A stretch of DNA of 64,000 bases from Candidatus Pantoea floridensis. Lineage in GTDB: Bacteria > Pseudomonadota > Gammaproteobacteria > Enterobacterales > Enterobacteriaceae. The position numbers and the translations under genes were made by a program. The notes below the pieces were generated by a model. The model was not told where the DNA came from, ran no database searches, and saw only the letters and a program-made list of their open reading frames with translations. Location: contig NZ_OCMY01000001.1 of NCBI RefSeq assembly GCF_900215435.1, positions 4,278,001 through 4,342,000 of the forward strand, written 5' to 3'. Within the stretch, counting starts at the first letter, position 1. Each line of letters starts with the position of its first letter. Positions 51,563 to 61,285 of this stretch are shown piece after piece.

Positions 51563-52153
51563 TTATTGCTGGTCTTCGACGTAAATTCCGGCTGAGACTA
51601 TCGCCCCACCGATTCGGCGCTGACCGTAAAGCAAAGGAACAGGATAGCCCTGTGAGGCGGTGTTAGTTGGAGAGCCGAAAGCATAAGAAGGCTGGTTATC
51701 TGAATCGTCTTTGTATGACAATCCCTGAGCCTGAGGCGACAGCATTTGCACGACACCGCCTAGCGTTACTGCAACCCCAGCCTGAAAGACGAAATTACTT
51801 CCGGCAATTGCTGATCCCCAGGGCGCGAAAACCGCAATCGCAATGAGTGCAACGCCTACAATCGTTTGTAATAGTCCGGCGCGTTTGCTGCCGATGATGA
51901 CCGGCATAATTCGGATCACATCACCTGACACTGACTTTTTGAGATCATCGAAGCCGATGTTGCGTTTCCCGGTAAAAACAGAAAACGTCAGTCCTCGCTT
52001 TCGGCTCGAAATCATGAATTTTTCAAACCCTTTAATCGTTGCTGCAAGCGCTGGAGCTGCCTCCTGAGTTTTCGAAATCATTCGGTGATGGACCTTGCCG
52101 AATGTCTTACCCAATATCCCGCCCAGTTCGATCCGCGTCATCACCTCAGCCAT
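51563..52153 (-). CDS. I: Tail assembly protein I (intact copy)
   Basis: A 196-residue lambda gpI-like protein: N-terminal domain with LGKTFGKVHHRMI, hydrophobic middle (about 93-135) and conserved C-terminus with YGQRRIGGAIVS. It helps assemble the tail tip with K and J. It lies 9 bp after a related, frameshifted copy. Confidence 0.88.
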   Translation of the reverse strand: MAEVMTRIELGGILGKTFGKVHHRMISKTQEAAPALAATIKGFEKFMISSRKRGLTFSVFTGKRNIGFDDLKKSVSGDVIRIMPVIIGSKRAGLLQTIVGVALIAIAVFAPWGSAIAGSNFVFQAGVAVTLGGVVQMLSPQAQGLSYKDDSDNQPSYAFGSPTNTASQGYPVPLLYGQRRIGGAIVSAGIYVEDQQ

Positions 52154-52162
52154 TCTTGTTCC

Positions 52163-52763
52163 TCACTGCTGATCTTCGACATAGACGCCACCTGAAATCA
52201 CAGCGCCACCTATTCGGCGCTGGCCATACAAAAGCGGAACGGGATAGCCCTGAGCGGCGGTATTCACGGCGGGACCAAAAGCATAGGAAGGCGCGTTGTC
52301 CGCATCGTCTTTGTGTGCGAGGCCTGGCGGCTGAGGGGAAAGCATCTGGATAACGCCGCCGATAACCATCGCCGCACCGAATTTCGCGATCCCGGCTCCG
52401 ACTGCTGAGGCTGTACCTCCTGTGAAATAACTGATGGCCACACCGACAACGACCAGAACAGCGCCGATGATGGTTTGAAACAATCCGCTGCGTTTACTGC
52501 CAATCATCACAGGGACGATTTTGATCGTCTCGCCTGTAACCGGATAACTCAGCTCTTCAAATCCGACATTGGTTTTACCGCGAAAAAACTGAGAACGTGA
52601 GGCCGCGCTTTTTACTGGTGATCATGAACGACTCAAAGCCTTTCACAGTTGCCGCAAGTGCTCGACACGCCTCCTGAGTCCGGGTTATGGAACGATAGTG
52701 AACCTTGCCGAAGGTGCGACCGAGCACACCACCCAGCTCAATTCGGGTCATCACTTCAGCCAT
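52163..52763 (-). pseudogene. Tail assembly protein I, frameshifted second copy
   Basis: The first frame (52763-52575) stops after residue 62; the second continues in the +1 frame to 52163. Removing one T from the six-T run at 52583-52588 restores a 199-residue protein parallel to the intact neighbour (LTFSVF...GKxNxGF...IGSKR). Outside this point it is well conserved, so the mutation is recent or an artefact of a homopolymer. Confidence 0.85.
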
Positions 52764-52857: not shown

Positions 52858-53007
52858 TTACCGGTTAAGTTCGTAGCTCAGACCTGCATCGACCTCTAAG
52901 ATTTTCGTTTTGATCCGAAAATCACAAAGTCTGTCACGTTCAAGCAACACAAACGCAAGAACAGTAAGACAGATGATCACGGTTAGAACCGTGGGTTTGT
53001 TTAGCAT
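52858..53007 (-). CDS. Hok/Gef-family membrane toxin
   Basis: A 49-residue peptide with an N-terminal membrane helix (VLTVIICLTVLAFVLL) and the Hok C-terminal pattern RDRLCDFRI...AGLSYELNR. TAGGAGG precedes ATG 53007. Hok peptides depolarise the inner membrane and are held off by an antisense Sok RNA; the leader upstream (53008-53110) is where such an RNA would lie, but I cannot confirm it. It sits between K and I of the late operon. Confidence 0.82.
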   Translation of the reverse strand: MLNKPTVLTVIICLTVLAFVLLERDRLCDFRIKTKILEVDAGLSYELNR

Positions 53008-53270
53008 TCTGAGCCTCCTAACGTTGCCTTTCGGCGTGTAAGGGGCTAATCTAGAGTTCTCACGCACTAGGATCGCCCCGGTTGAATTGAAAGATTCGCT
53101 GGGGCTTTCTTTTGCCTGCCGTTCACTCATGCTCCCGGCAAACATCCGAAAGCACAGCGCCATTATTCTAACATTCCGATAATTAAAAAACCCTTCATAT
53201 TGAATACTTTAGTTATCAAAGTGTGCGAAAAACATTTTATGAACACTGGGTTTTGTCTCTCGAATCTTCG

Positions 53271-53981
53271 TTAAAGAAGATCCTTATATCTGACGATTTT
53301 CATCGTCCTTTCACGCCAGTAACCGCCGTAAGGCGTTCTGTTGCTAGGACGGCCATAAAGATGGTGAAGCATCATGTTTCCATCAAGCATCACGCCAGCA
53401 TGATTCCATTTTTTCGATTGAATCTGCATCATGATTAGATCCCCTGCCTTCGGCTTGCCGGTAAACTCGCGGAATCCGCATTCATACCAGTTATCTCGAT
53501 AGAGATTTTCAGGGTGATCGTCCTCCCACCACGGATAATCAACGCGGTAATCGTTTAGCTCTATGCCGTGGACCTGTTTGAAGTAGCTCATGACCAGCCC
53601 CCAGCAATCAGAATGCCCCAGCACAAACGGCCTTTCTATCAGGGGAAGCTCGCCCCTGGGATAGATCGTCTTTAAATCACCCTCCGGCCAGCTCACAATC
53701 ACCCACGGAACCGCGCTGTCATCACACATCGCCCTGTCAAGATGACTGGGTTGAGTCGTGGCGTCAGGATGACTGTGAACGATAGCCGTGATAACCCCCA
53801 GGTCTTCGGCTTCGGCGAAATCCTTAGGATTGAGAATGAATTGTTCACGCGGATTTTCAGAGAGGTTTCGGCAAGGAAAGTAACATTCAGCGTCATTGTT
53901 CTGAACGACTACACCACAACATTCAGCGGGATAATCCCGTTTGGCATGGTCGAAGATTGCGTTTATGATCCCCTGGTCCAT
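53271..53981 (-). CDS. K: Tail assembly protein K (JAB + NlpC/P60)
   Basis: A 236-residue fusion as in lambda gpK. The N-terminal JAB/MPN metal site reads HSHPDATTQPSHLD (about 68-81). The C-terminal NlpC/P60 cysteine is in GHSDCWGLV (about 123-131) with the His in WNHAGVML. The protein takes part in tail-tip assembly and may cut peptidoglycan during DNA entry. Confidence 0.92.
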   Translation of the reverse strand: MDQGIINAIFDHAKRDYPAECCGVVVQNNDAECYFPCRNLSENPREQFILNPKDFAEAEDLGVITAIVHSHPDATTQPSHLDRAMCDDSAVPWVIVSWPEGDLKTIYPRGELPLIERPFVLGHSDCWGLVMSYFKQVHGIELNDYRVDYPWWEDDHPENLYRDNWYECGFREFTGKPKAGDLIMMQIQSKKWNHAGVMLDGNMMLHHLYGRPSNRTPYGGYWRERTMKIVRYKDLL

Positions 53982-53991
53982 TAGACACCCA

Positions 53992-54014
53992 TAAAAAAAC
54001 CCGCTTTCGCGGGT
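53992..54014 (-). terminator. Terminator after the 54022 gene
   Basis: AACCCGC and GCGGGTT pair around TTTC; seven T's follow on the minus strand. Almost the same sequence as the terminator at 52775. Confidence 0.85.
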
Positions 54015-54021
54015 TGTCAGG

Positions 54022-54465
54022 CTAGAAAAGCTTACTCATCAAATTTAACCTGAGCGATTCATTGTAATACTGTGCAAGAAATTTATCTTCTTTAAGAATG
54101 AAAATCCCCATCTGGTGCTCCAGCGTCTTGAATAAATAAAGCTCATAAGAATCAATAAAAAGCTTGAGTTCACACCTAAACTTTTCAAGCGCACGGAGAT
54201 AAAGCTCCTTGCATTTTTCCTTCACAGGCAAATCTAATCGATGATTATGAGCCATGCCAAAACCATTCGCCATTAAAGAATAATTTCCGTGATAAGTCAT
54301 ATAATGGTAAAACTTATAAACGTTATTAAGGTAAAAGAAAGCATAATCAAACTTTTTTGAAAATGTGTCTCTGTCCCGCTCCATCAGACTTAGCAAAGAA
54401 CGATCTGAAATTAAGTCAAGAACACCATCAAAATTAAACTGACCATCATGGGAAATCAGAAGCAT
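54022..54465 (-). CDS. Unknown cargo protein in the tail operon
   Basis: A 147-residue soluble, mostly helical protein rich in Phe and Tyr (FDYAFFYLNNVYKFYHYM). ATG 54465 has GAGGTG upstream. No family recognised. It lies between two terminators, after the hydrolase pair and before K, so it is part of a cargo block with them. Confidence 0.6.
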   Translation of the reverse strand: MLLISHDGQFNFDGVLDLISDRSLLSLMERDRDTFSKKFDYAFFYLNNVYKFYHYMTYHGNYSLMANGFGMAHNHRLDLPVKEKCKELYLRALEKFRCELKLFIDSYELYLFKTLEHQMGIFILKEDKFLAQYYNESLRLNLMSKLF

Positions 54466-54474
54466 CACGCACCT

Positions 54475-54496
54475 CAAAAACCCGCCTCAGCGGGTT
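54475..54496 (-). terminator. Terminator after hydrolase 1
   Basis: AACCCGC and GCGGGTT pair around CTCA; TTTTT follows on the minus strand. Confidence 0.85.
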
Positions 54497-54504
54497 TAAC
54501 TGTG

Positions 54505-55374
54505 TTATTCGACAACGCGAATGAAATCGTGAACAACCGGATAAAAGTCATCAGGAAGCTCAATGAACGAAATATGACAAGAATCCTTAAATTCAACATA
54601 ACTTGAGTTCGGGATTTCTTTCGCGATGAAACGTGATCCTGCTGGTGGCGTTAACCAGTCCTGAGAACCGGCGATAACCAGTGTAGGGACAGTGATTTTA
54701 TGGAGTTCACGACGAACGTCATAAGTTTTATAAATATGGTTCACAAACCGATTTAGCATCGGAATCGAAATCCCGGTGAAGTTGCGAACCAGGGGCTGGA
54801 ACATATCCATTTTATCTTTTGCCAGGAAATGTGGCCCCGCTTTATCAAAGCAAGCTTTCACCGTCTCTTCTGTGATAATGCCCTTTCCGTAAACCGTCAA
54901 GCACGCCTCAACGACATCAGGCGGCGCACGTTCAACGAGCGTTGGAGATGGGATGTTATCAATCACTTTATCAAACGAAGGCGAGGTGTTAACCAAAATC
55001 AGCGCCTTAAGTTTTTCCTGATGACGAAGCGCGAAGTGTTGAGCGACAAACCCACCAGCGCAATGGCCAACGAGATAAACTTTGTCGAGACCCAAATGAT
55101 CGATGATTGCTGCGACATCATCAGCCAGGTTTTCAAAGGTGACAGTTGAGGCATCTACACCTAATGAACGTCCTGATGCAGGAAGATCGATGTAAATGAC
55201 CTGGCCGAAAAAAGTCAGAATATCCAATCCGCGTCTCAGATAACCATGATCAAAACCTGATGCGCAATGAATCGCCACAAAAACAGGTTTCTTTGTCATT
55301 TCAGGCGTAGAGGCGTTCAAACCTTCTCCGATAACATCAAAGAAAATGCTTTTACCGTTAACATTTGCAAACAT
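54505..55374 (-). CDS. Alpha/beta hydrolase with Cys in the nucleophile position
   Basis: A 289-residue alpha/beta-hydrolase-fold protein. The nucleophile elbow reads VGHCAGG, so Cys105 replaces the usual Ser. Acid Asp239 (AGSQDW) and His267 (DSCHISF) complete the triad. The oxyanion region reads IHCASGFDH instead of HGGPG. No signal peptide. GAGG precedes ATG. It is a paralogue of the gene just upstream and lies between tail genes L and K. Cys nucleophiles occur in dienelactone hydrolases; here the chemistry is unknown. Confidence 0.88.
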   Translation of the reverse strand: MFANVNGKSIFFDVIGEGLNASTPEMTKKPVFVAIHCASGFDHGYLRRGLDILTFFGQVIYIDLPASGRSLGVDASTVTFENLADDVAAIIDHLGLDKVYLVGHCAGGFVAQHFALRHQEKLKALILVNTSPSFDKVIDNIPSPTLVERAPPDVVEACLTVYGKGIITEETVKACFDKAGPHFLAKDKMDMFQPLVRNFTGISIPMLNRFVNHIYKTYDVRRELHKITVPTLVIAGSQDWLTPPAGSRFIAKEIPNSSYVEFKDSCHISFIELPDDFYPVVHDFIRVVE

Positions 55375-55452
55375 ATGAACCTCATGAAGTTAATAAAAGC
55401 AGAGGTATAATCACTTCCTTATAGATAAAAAGACTCCCAACATGCACATTCT

Positions 55453-56334
55453 TTAGTTGTGACTTGCAATAAATGCCTTCACAATTGATTTGAACTTTTC
55501 AGGTTCCTCATTAAATAAATAATGCCCGGATTCTTTAAACTCAACGAAGGTTGAATCATATAATTTTTTTGACAGCATAAATGATCCGACCGATGGAGTG
55601 GCCCAGTCATAAACACCGCTCATGACTAATGAAGGTGTTTTTACAAGACTGATTTTCCCATGTGAATTAAAGAATGGAACCAGACGACGATAGTGATTCA
55701 CGACATCGATTTTTGCCGTTACATAATTAAAGATTGATGCAAACATTTCGCCATTCTGAGGAGCCATAAAGAACGGTCCTACCTTGTTGAAATATTCTTT
55801 AAACTGTGACTCAGTCAGAGGAAGCGGGCTGTAATAGAAATTATGCGCTATATCAAGCAACTCGCCTTCGGTACGGTCTTTGAGGAAAGGCGTTGGATAG
55901 CCCTCCTCTTCTTTCCCAGGTAAAACCGTCATCCCCATAGAGCTTGAGACCAGAATTAAGCCTTTCACTGTTTCGGGGTGACGCATCGCGATTTTCTGAG
56001 CAATGAAACTGCCAGAATCATGGCCAAAAATAAACGCTGATTGAATGCCGACAAGTTTCATGAACTCATAAACGTCGTCAGCCATGCGTTCAAACTGAAT
56101 TGAAGAAAGTTTCACGTCTGACGAGCGGCCCTGTCCACGCATATCAACATAAATAATCTGACAATCCTCACTGAGATCATCGAGACCTGGACGAAGATAA
56201 GCATGGTCAAAGCCATAACCGCCAGCCAACGCAATCACGATGGGTTTTGAGCTGAGTGGAGCCGCCTGTCCCTCAAGATCGGTCCCGACAACATCAAAGA
56301 ACAATAATGTCTCGTCGCTGAGTTCCGCAAACAT
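55453..56334 (-). CDS. Alpha/beta hydrolase with Asp in the nucleophile position
   Basis: A 293-residue paralogue of the next gene. The elbow reads FGHDSGSF, putting Asp106 at the nucleophile position, as in haloalkane dehalogenases and epoxide hydrolases. Asp243 (GVYDWATP) and His271 (ESGHYLF) are in place. DHAYLRPGLD and VDMRGQGRS mark the proline-iminopeptidase-like branch. AGAGG precedes ATG. The 78 bp before the next gene and 69 bp before this one could hold promoters, but none is clear. Confidence 0.88.
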   Translation of the reverse strand: MFAELSDETLLFFDVVGTDLEGQAAPLSSKPIVIALAGGYGFDHAYLRPGLDDLSEDCQIIYVDMRGQGRSSDVKLSSIQFERMADDVYEFMKLVGIQSAFIFGHDSGSFIAQKIAMRHPETVKGLILVSSSMGMTVLPGKEEEGYPTPFLKDRTEGELLDIAHNFYYSPLPLTESQFKEYFNKVGPFFMAPQNGEMFASIFNYVTAKIDVVNHYRRLVPFFNSHGKISLVKTPSLVMSGVYDWATPSVGSFMLSKKLYDSTFVEFKESGHYLFNEEPEKFKSIVKAFIASHN

Positions 56335-56403
56335 GATGACCTCTGTTCAGTAAGAAAGAAGATAATAAGAAAGGAACATGAATAAACTGATCAAAGTGAG
56401 CGA

Positions 56404-57159
56404 TCATGTTCTTAACAGCGAGGTTCCTGGGAATCCTCCGAAAGAAAGCGGGTTATCCTGCCCGAACCTTAATTTGCATCCAGTTATTGAGCCTGAACAA
56501 ACATCAAGACTTGGATCATCGACAGGATTATTAAACTTATCGAAATAGTTGGTCCCTGCGTAGTCACAACCATCGCCTGAACGATATTTACCGCGCATAC
56601 ACCAGGTGCAAACCGCATGAAGCTGTCTCGTAGGAATTTGCAGCCCCTGGAGATCCATCGGACTCGATAAAGCAAACTCAACCTGAACTTTGGTTTCACT
56701 TGATTTTTCATCGATGTAAAACACCCGAAGCTTTTCCTGTGTCGGATCGGCATTCAGGTTTCCATCTTCAAAATTTGCGGCGTCAAGGTATTGCGCCAGC
56801 GTGTCATGAATCGATACTTTCGCCTGAAGCATGTCCTGAAACTGCAAACACAAAGCTGTTATCGATCCGTTCAGGTTTGCCACGGTTAAGCGGGGATTGG
56901 GTGCGCTGCCGGTTGTTGATGTTTCCAGGCCTTCGATCTTACAAGGCCACGCGGAATACTCCTCACCCTGCCAAAAAATCGATTTTGCGGGTAACTGGGT
57001 TTCATCACCGTTAGCGGCGAGGATTTCAGCTTCAGTATGGGGGATGTTGTGAGAATGGAACCGTAACACCTCATCAACGCCAAACGCCGACCCGTCAACC
57101 TCATAGAGCCGGATTTCACTTCCGGGTTCAAGTTTTTGATAATCGCTGGTCAAACTCAT
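56404..57159 (-). CDS. L: Minor tail protein L
   Basis: A 251-residue lambda gpL-like protein. The C-terminal cysteines (AVCTWCMRG, GDGCDYAG, DVCSGSITGC) match the Fe-S-binding domain known in lambda gpL. It forms part of the tail tip base. It overlaps M by four bases. Confidence 0.92.
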   Translation of the reverse strand: MSLTSDYQKLEPGSEIRLYEVDGSAFGVDEVLRFHSHNIPHTEAEILAANGDETQLPAKSIFWQGEEYSAWPCKIEGLETSTTGSAPNPRLTVANLNGSITALCLQFQDMLQAKVSIHDTLAQYLDAANFEDGNLNADPTQEKLRVFYIDEKSSETKVQVEFALSSPMDLQGLQIPTRQLHAVCTWCMRGKYRSGDGCDYAGTNYFDKFNNPVDDPSLDVCSGSITGCKLRFGQDNPLSFGGFPGTSLLRT

Positions 57160-60523: not shown

Positions 60524-60546
60524 TAAAAAACCCGCCGAAGCGGGTT
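60524..60546 (-). terminator. Terminator after the 60562 gene
   Basis: AACCCGC and GCGGGTT pair around CGAA; TTTTTT follows on the minus strand. Confidence 0.85.
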
Positions 60547-60561
60547 AGTTTTTATCTTTTA

Positions 60562-61215
60562 TCATGATGAATACATGATTTTCACACCATCATTCAGATT
60601 GAATCTGAACTGTTGAGAACCATTCTGAAAATAATCGACTTCAATTATCGCTGATTTATGGCGTTTGACCTCTCTCATAAACCGCTGACCGTCAATGACC
60701 TCCATGATGTTATTTGCAGAACCGACAAGTGTAGAAACACGAAAACGTTCAACCTTTCCACCATCAAAACTGACAGAAGCATAACAACCGTCATATTCAC
60801 ACAGAAACTGACCGTCAGTTGTTGTTAAGAATACCCTGTTGATTGAAGAGCGAGGTTTATAGGCTTTCACATCTTTAATCGGCTTGCTGGTGGTTGCTAT
60901 GTTCAACCAGGCGCCTTTGTTATAAGGAAAGCTGAATACATGCTTGTTCAAAGAACTGTTATTGCCGAATTCAGTAGTGGTCTGGCGAAGATCATCATGT
61001 TCAAAATGGTAATGCCAGTTCTTCTCATTGGTTTCGATTTTTCTTACCTGTTTGACAGGAAGCGTTGTCGAAAGATGAGAGAGCTTGTCAATAACCTCTT
61101 CTCTCTGAGACATAACAGGTTCATCCTGAGGAATAGGATTCGCTTGAACATACCACTGATAACCCACCACCAACGCCACAACAACCGCACAACCACCAAT
61201 TTTTAAATTTTTCAC
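60562..61215 (-). CDS. Membrane-anchored or secreted cargo protein between V and G
   Basis: A 217-residue protein with one N-terminal hydrophobic helix (GGCAVVVALVVGYQWYV), so it is anchored with its domain in the periplasm, or exported. GTG 61215 is preferred to GTG 61221 since AAGGA lies eight bases before it. No family recognised; two cysteines close together (CEYDGC) may pair. It has its own terminator and interrupts the canonical V-G order, the hallmark of a moron gene. Confidence 0.7.
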   Translation of the reverse strand: MKNLKIGGCAVVVALVVGYQWYVQANPIPQDEPVMSQREEVIDKLSHLSTTLPVKQVRKIETNEKNWHYHFEHDDLRQTTTEFGNNSSLNKHVFSFPYNKGAWLNIATTSKPIKDVKAYKPRSSINRVFLTTTDGQFLCEYDGCYASVSFDGGKVERFRVSTLVGSANNIMEVIDGQRFMREVKRHKSAIIEVDYFQNGSQQFRFNLNDGVKIMYSS

Positions 61216-61285
61216 GTTCACATTCCTTCACTTCAATGAAGGGAATGATACTTTGTAGATACATGGGAAAGTTATCAATCTGTGC

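Follow-up and report, generated by a model that had tools for sequence, protein, structure and literature searches.

The two hydrolase genes that separate L from K in the tail operon of a Candidatus Pantoea floridensis prophage are probably the survivors of a three-gene, moron-type prophage cargo cassette, in which one ancestral gene was triplicated and two of the copies, A and B, were rewired. In the 64,000-nt stretch of DNA analysed here (the window), this pair is the remainder of a three-gene set lacking its Ser member, gene C. The wider finding is a conserved phage triplet comprising one intact copy and two rewired copies.

Location and occurrence of the hydrolase cassette

Gene A (54505-55374) and gene B (55453-56334), both on the minus strand of the window, are open full-length ORFs of 289 and 293 aa, respectively, with tail gene L (56404-57159, minus strand; PF05100, 274 bits) as the upstream neighbour and tail gene K (53271-53981, minus strand; NlpC/P60 and JAB) as the downstream neighbour. 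Both products are members of Abhydrolase_1 (PF00561), scoring 100.2 bits (A) and 72.7 bits (B) against the Pfam cutoff of 25.8, and they are alpha/beta-hydrolase paralogues with 35% identity to each other and a place in the same clade of the tree. AlphaFold2 gave single-domain models of the canonical fold, without extra segments, for both proteins (pLDDT 96.5 for A and 95.0 for B). The original prediction of two paralogous hydrolases between L and K was thus confirmed by the ORFs, the Pfam scores and the shared clade; it had made no mention of orf151 (54022-54477, minus strand; 151 aa, no family match), which follows gene A and also sits between the pair and K.

Viral contigs were scanned with A, B and L, and the genes were then mapped. 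The cassette consists of three hydrolase genes, directly after L and in the order B-A-C wherever it is complete. All ten informative loci with an L at least 90% identical, namely, the window and nine contigs that include two near-identical pairs (window/L009 and L058/L059), carried hydrolases after L, starting 69-80 bp past it. A, B and C were all present in seven contigs (L016, L052, L053, L055, L057, L058 and L059), and gene C was missing from the window and L009. The tenth locus, L054, is cut inside gene B, the frame of which is broken; in L052, the frame of gene A is broken, as is tail gene K. Both are metagenome contigs, and these frame breaks were the only signs of decay seen.

No hydrolase was found in any of 64 loci with lower L identity in which K lies within 60 bp of L. 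These comprised 35 viral and 29 genome loci, the latter being 29 of 30 fetched from a longer list, each of 3.7 kb and possibly overlapping the viral contigs in origin. The comparison of 10 with 64 loci omits L056 (L at least 90% identical, but the contig ends 3 bp past L) and five viral loci of lower L identity, namely, L081, L097 and L098 (no K seen), and L096 and L099 (K at 359 and 971 bp from L, respectively), and none of these six loci contained a hydrolase. L and K are 1 bp apart in HK97 and 148 bp apart in lambda, with nothing annotated in the lambda gap; the claim that this junction is empty in lambda therefore held, and it is empty in relatives as well. The arrangement is that of a moron, with extra genes between neighbours that are adjacent in relatives (10/10 loci with them versus 64 loci without).

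The Cys gene, A, was detected in 1 of 61 genomes of the genus and in 1 of 394 genomes drawn from the order, up to six candidates per genome being scored in the order set; in both cases, the positive genome was that of the window itself. A search of genome contigs with the Cys profile yielded two distant relatives, at 25 and 30%. Only remote matches were obtained from named phage records (12 to A at 22.9-30.9% and one to B at 22.7%), and megablast of the 11-kb tail region found no such record. Matches to A were obtained from 990 plasmid records, all below 60%, the best (40.2%) being from Rhizobium, and the matches in a viral structure library were mostly giant-virus hydrolases, with no informative phage protein. 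A mention of a hydrolase in a Pantoea ananatis comparison (PMC4428218) is a row of a Pfam table, PF06500. No description of such a cassette was found in searches confined to the open-access literature, so that this is weak evidence of absence.

Active-site residues of the three paralogues

The nucleophile elbow is GHCAG (C105) in the A protein and GHDSG (D106) in the B protein, and the acid (D239 in A, D243 in B) and His (H267 in A, H271 in B) are present in both. The oxyanion loop reads HCASG in A and AGGYG in B, versus HGG(P/L)G in almost every other row of the alignment. The elbows, the acid, the His and the alteration of both oxyanion loops were therefore as first described. The near-identical metagenome contig L009 has the same gene arrangement and carries both elbows as in the window, which argues against a sequencing slip as the source of the window Asp.

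The joint alignment comprised 15 rows of clade A, 11 of clade B and 8 of clade C, to which three C rows found later were added; two of the C rows, L016 and P0017, are near-duplicates of each other. Within clade A, H36, C37, C105, D239 and H267 were invariant (15/15 each), and A38 was present in 14 rows and replaced by Val in one. Two further positions were less constrained: C266, beside the His, is retained in just 10 of the 15 rows, and the loop of the L053 protein is HCALG, so S39 can vary. The Cys at the elbow of A is thus real and conserved and, judged by this alignment, it is fixed, the oxyanion loop having changed together with the nucleophile.

Clade B showed a different pattern. The nucleophile site was occupied by Ala in seven rows, Ser in two, Asp in one (that of the window) and Glu in one, with conservation of the acid, the His and both oxyanion glycines in all 11 rows. 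Among the located phages, the residue is Asp in the window and L009, Ala in L016, L053, L057 and L058/L059, Ser in L052 and Glu in L055, and the codons used are GCC, TCC, GAT and GAG. This column belongs to the more variable third of the alignment (at least four states occur in 92 of the 292 columns without gaps). The position of H36 holds Asn (7), Ser (3) or Ala (1), giving a loop of (N/S/A)GG. Because the B nucleophile varies in both residue and codon, the window Asp is, on the aligned orthologues, one state of a drifting site. The original prediction held that orthologues with ordinary Ser nucleophiles in the same place would mark the unusual elbows as random decay. Such an orthologue was found for the Asp gene (in L052, with a second Ser protein, P0049, whose place was not seen), and none was found for the Cys gene.

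All C rows (8 and the 3 found later) have the H-Gly-Gly loop and the Ser, and C is by motif a canonical Ser hydrolase. It is the sole cassette member with the full HGG loop, Ser, acid and His; A (HCA and Cys) and B ((N/S/A)GG and a variable nucleophile) depart from this motif, and C is absent from the window genome. Outside the phage clade, Gly, Gly and Ser were found in 132 of 132 compared rows, made up of 53 chosen from earlier matches and 79 from the best 120 of 457, with one protein entered twice (L101 and P0167). In an alignment of 124 proteins, the remote P0043 and P0119 have Gly at the nucleophile column, the truncated P0097 and P0098 lack the acid and His, and several remote proteins lack the Gly-Gly loop; no Cys was found at the nucleophile outside clade A in this alignment. 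Likewise, the signature HC(A/V)SGFDHGY...HCAGG did not occur outside clade A in the alignments made.

Full-length bacterial homologues include proline-iminopeptidase-like Ser hydrolases from Paraburkholderia (P0060), Rhizobium (L101 and L102) and Cupriavidus (P0162), whose highest identities to A, B or C were 45-48% among the matches listed. They differ from A and B in that Gly-Gly and Ser are kept, as in all 132 rows above. The Rhizobium genes are on plasmids, and the annotated L101 occurs singly, with no tail operon around it; it adjoins a 2-dehydropantoate 2-reductase gene, which does not settle a substrate. The closest solved relative by sequence, tricorn-interacting factor F1, a Thermoplasma proline iminopeptidase (PDB 1mtz; 1xqw, S105A; 1xqv, G37A), is a Ser105/Gly37 machine, whereas at the aligned sites A has Cys105 and Ala38, and B has no conserved nucleophile. 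Since A38, counted on the alignment, corresponds to Gly37 of F1, and 1xqv is entitled 'inactive F1-mutant G37A', A naturally carries the substitution reported to inactivate this relative, plus an adjoining Cys.

Several family assignments were tried and rejected. Scores against the proline iminopeptidase models were 91.2 (A) and 60.2 (B) versus a cutoff of 167.65 bits (TIGR01250) and 31.7 (B) versus 259.75 (TIGR01249). The haloalkane dehalogenase model (NF002938; cutoff 241 bits) gave 34.9 for A and 32.4 for B, and the class III PHA synthase model (TIGR01836; cutoff 365.3 bits) gave 31.4 for A. Dienelactone hydrolase was not among the Pfam matches of A or B at E<=0.001. An Asp-nucleophile hydrolase of the dehalogenase or epoxide hydrolase type was also rejected for B, the Asp not being conserved (1 of 11 orthologue rows).

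Cys occurs at the elbow of dienelactone hydrolase and PHA synthase, but A fails the profiles of these families and its Cys arose among Ser proteins. The original proposal was that the pair have two chemistries, with dienelactone-hydrolase-like or acyl-transfer Cys chemistry in A and Asp dehalogenase or epoxide-hydrolase chemistry in B, as two active enzymes. The invariance of the Cys in A (15/15) is consistent with the first half, and the structural matches of B do include the epoxide hydrolases 8zp6 and 9c2g and the fluoroacetate dehalogenase 3b12. However, Ser esterase and peptidase structures outrank those matches for B. Together with the low dehalogenase score and the presence of Asp in a single B row, this makes a pair with two chemistries highly improbable. 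The B protein looks instead like a probable maintained pseudo-hydrolase, predicted from the loss of the catalytic residue among orthologues with retention of the fold and of constraint (pN/pS 0.39), and not like a dehalogenase or epoxide hydrolase.

Origin, selection and expression signals

In a maximum-likelihood tree of 87 proteins, A, B and C were each monophyletic (bootstrap 100) and jointly formed one clade (100/99) nested among Ser proteins, the nearest outgroups being P0060, L101, L102 and the metagenomic P0064 (P0162 was not in the tree). The Cys of A thus arose within a clade of Ser proteins. Every row seen inside a tail operon falls in this phage clade, which also includes some database rows of unseen location. 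The simplest reading of the tree is one acquisition followed by two tandem duplications inside the phage lineage; which duplication came first is uncertain, since B and C paired at 98/51 support.

Selection was assessed by comparing six or seven phages in pairs with Nei-Gojobori counts. The pN/pS values and distances omit A and K of L052 (broken), the near-copy L059 and L054 (cut, with B broken), and the distance tests omit L052 wholly. Synonymous differences had reached saturation in every gene (mean pS 0.68-0.78). Mean pN was 0.057 for L, 0.073 for M and 0.150 for K, against 0.285 for B, 0.272 for A and 0.291 for C, giving pN/pS values, at saturated pS, of 0.37 for A and 0.39 for both B and C. 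These counts indicate an old cassette that has stayed in position under purifying selection, with protein change approximately fivefold that of L and twofold that of K. In Mantel distance tests (uncorrected; five or six phages), A correlated with C (p 0.017) and B with L (p 0.021), and the other 13 of 15 gene pairs were not below 0.05; with only 2 of 15 pairs correlated, the cassette may not always be inherited as a unit.

Relaxed decay of copies made redundant by duplication might be considered in light of the drifting B nucleophile, the loss of C from the window and the broken frames of A in L052 and B in L054. Nevertheless, the acid and His are invariant in all three clades, Cys37 and Cys105 are invariant in A, frames are full length in the remaining loci, and the accompanying break of K in L052 is what assembly errors would produce. 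Decay is disfavoured for B in particular because, despite the lack of a conserved nucleophile, it is as constrained as A and C. Random decay is therefore a poor fit, even with single broken frames in L052 and L054, and we consider this explanation very unlikely.

A conserved element precedes gene B (56362-56402, minus strand), with CGCTCA in 8 of 8 phages and, 29-30 bp further on, a -10-like TATTAT in seven and TATCAT in one. It is a putative promoter, for which no sigma-70 -35 was found by eye at normal spacing. In the B-A gap, a stem formed by ACCTC and GAGGT (55379-55406, minus strand) would sequester the Shine-Dalgarno sequence of gene A; ACCTCTG and GAGGT are invariant in six aligned phages (5 pairs, no covariation), and the stem is absent from L058/L059, in which A starts approximately 20 bp past B. 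The idea of a leader peptide ahead of gene A was dropped, since by eye its frame is not kept between phages.

Just past the stop codon of A lies a GC-rich, terminator-like hairpin (54479-54496, minus strand; AACCCGC-TGAG-GCGGGTT) that is followed by only three further T and falls below the scan threshold. Another is found between orf151 and K (53998-54015, minus strand; AACCCGC-GAAA-GCGGGTT) with a T tail. In six of the seven triplet contigs, a terminator-like hairpin with a T run, stronger than that after window A, follows C; the exception is L057, in which a relative of orf151 directly follows C. Region-wide promoter and terminator matches did not, overall, exceed those in shuffled sequences (16 versus 12.4 and 9 versus 8.6), so the candidate promoter, Shine-Dalgarno stem and terminators stay leads, backed by position and conservation.

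A place in a tail operon raises the alternative that these proteins are virion or tail-assembly components, such as tail-tip enzymes, and have been kept there for that reason. Their fixed position over synonymous-saturated divergence agrees with this, and the Shine-Dalgarno-blocking stem before A in six phages would suit the control of stoichiometry. Against it, the cassette proteins change far more than the tail proteins (pN 0.27-0.29 versus 0.057 for L and 0.150 for K), related phages have L beside K without hydrolases (0/64), terminator-like hairpins follow the cassette, and the single-domain models have no extra segments. A virion role is accordingly unlikely. The insertion between adjacent tail genes, the hairpins at gene ends and the fast protein evolution together suggest moron-type cargo. 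The annotated HK97 morons gp15 and gp22/gp23 are comparable, as cargo of a lambdoid phage that sits among its tail genes and has putative terminators, but they are other genes at other junctions.

Neighbouring cargo and proposed role of the cassette

Further non-tail ORFs were observed in these operons. The product of orf151 is related to that of a 161-aa ORF after C in L057 (27%, E 2.5e-9), which in turn is related to a 152-aa ORF of L016 (35%, E 1e-33); the L016 product is only 19% identical to that of window orf151. GDSL-lipase autotransporters of 654-677 aa (Pfam), an outer-membrane type of cargo, are encoded in the tail operons of L016 (7421-9454), L055 (13771-15735) and L057 (15441-17468). 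Between K and I, an aldo-keto reductase gene was found in L058 (15762-16661; Pfam) and in L053 (14882-15780), where it is in two frames, 69 and 66% identical to the L058 copy. Such autotransporter and reductase genes stand after C or K in sister phages, and this neighbouring cargo fits lysogen cargo better than a virion part.

Other observations concern the rest of the tail region. Between V and G, orf219 (window 60562-61221) matched nothing in Pfam, PHROG, NCBIfam or PADLOC; it is fast-evolving (39-54% identity in the sister contigs that reach V-G), and it has an upstream element in common with the sister phages as well as a terminator-like hairpin (60529-60546). A Hok/Gef-type toxin-like ORF lies between K and I (window 52858-53163), and related Hok-like ORFs are found repeatedly in sister phages, L057 having one between orf219 and G as well. 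Tail gene I is a tandem pair in sister phages, the copies matching one window copy at approximately 64-68%; in the window (51563-52153, 52163-52510 and 52575-52763), the first copy is split into two frames.

We propose that a lambdoid, Pantoea-type phage acquired, between L and K, one Ser alpha/beta hydrolase of bacterial origin from the broad proline-iminopeptidase/esterase group, which then underwent tandem triplication there, as the tree and synteny support. C would have retained the Ser machine. In A, Ser would have changed to Cys together with the change of Gly-Gly to Cys-Ala, the combination then becoming fixed, and B would have retained the fold, the oxyanion glycines, the acid and the His while the nucleophile was let go. 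Transcription in the lysogen would run from the conserved element before B to the hairpins before K. The ligand class expected from the superfamily is a small acyl, ester or lactone-type compound, and action in the cytoplasm would be consistent with the hydrophobicity profiles, in which the best 19-residue mean was 1.1 in A and B, with no stretch of membrane strength. The A protein would most likely form a slow or stable thioester, as an acyl trap or in acyl transfer, or else might be a redox-sensitive binder; Cys105 could thus carry a slow thioester or a disulphide with Cys37. The B protein may bind a ligand or a partner without turnover. Since the window prophage has lost C, the one canonical catalyst among the three, the remaining pair would act by binding or modification, and hydrolysis by these two proteins is less probable.

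The structural matches of the pair comprised esterases, an enol-lactonase, an N-acyl-homoserine-lactone-degrading esterase and an iminopeptidase, and made no choice among substrates. The presence of the lactone-degrading esterase (5egn) among the top matches of both A and B, the fast evolution of the cassette and the precedent of the HK97 moron gp15 among tail genes would accord with a phage-competition device, acting in superinfection exclusion or in the degradation or sensing of a cell-cell signal. Such a device is nevertheless quite improbable, given that the structural matches are spread over the superfamily without singling out lactonases, that no membrane-type segment is present and that no PADLOC anti-phage model matched A, B, orf151, orf219 or one C at E<=0.001.

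For the cargo cassette proposed here, a more specific function can be put forward tentatively, as a possibility of modest weight. The three proteins, evolved in the phage from one enzyme, might form a division-of-labour, ligand-handling set in which an intact Ser hydrolase works with a Cys/Cys-Ala protein that has lost normal turnover and serves for covalent acyl capture (or as a Cys37-Cys105 disulphide switch) and with a nucleophile-free receptor or regulatory subunit. If so, just the capture and receptor parts would be left in the window prophage.

In one small cassette, the intact catalyst adjoins a copy with a swapped nucleophile and a copy with none, in an order preserved over synonymous-saturated divergence; we know of no other such phage set. 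The tail operon of these phages is a cargo site for metabolic enzymes, including the esterase autotransporter and the aldo-keto reductase, and the cassette itself provides natural variants with which to study the requirements of a Ser-to-Cys swap, the oxyanion glycines having changed too, and the reason why a presumably dead hydrolase is kept.
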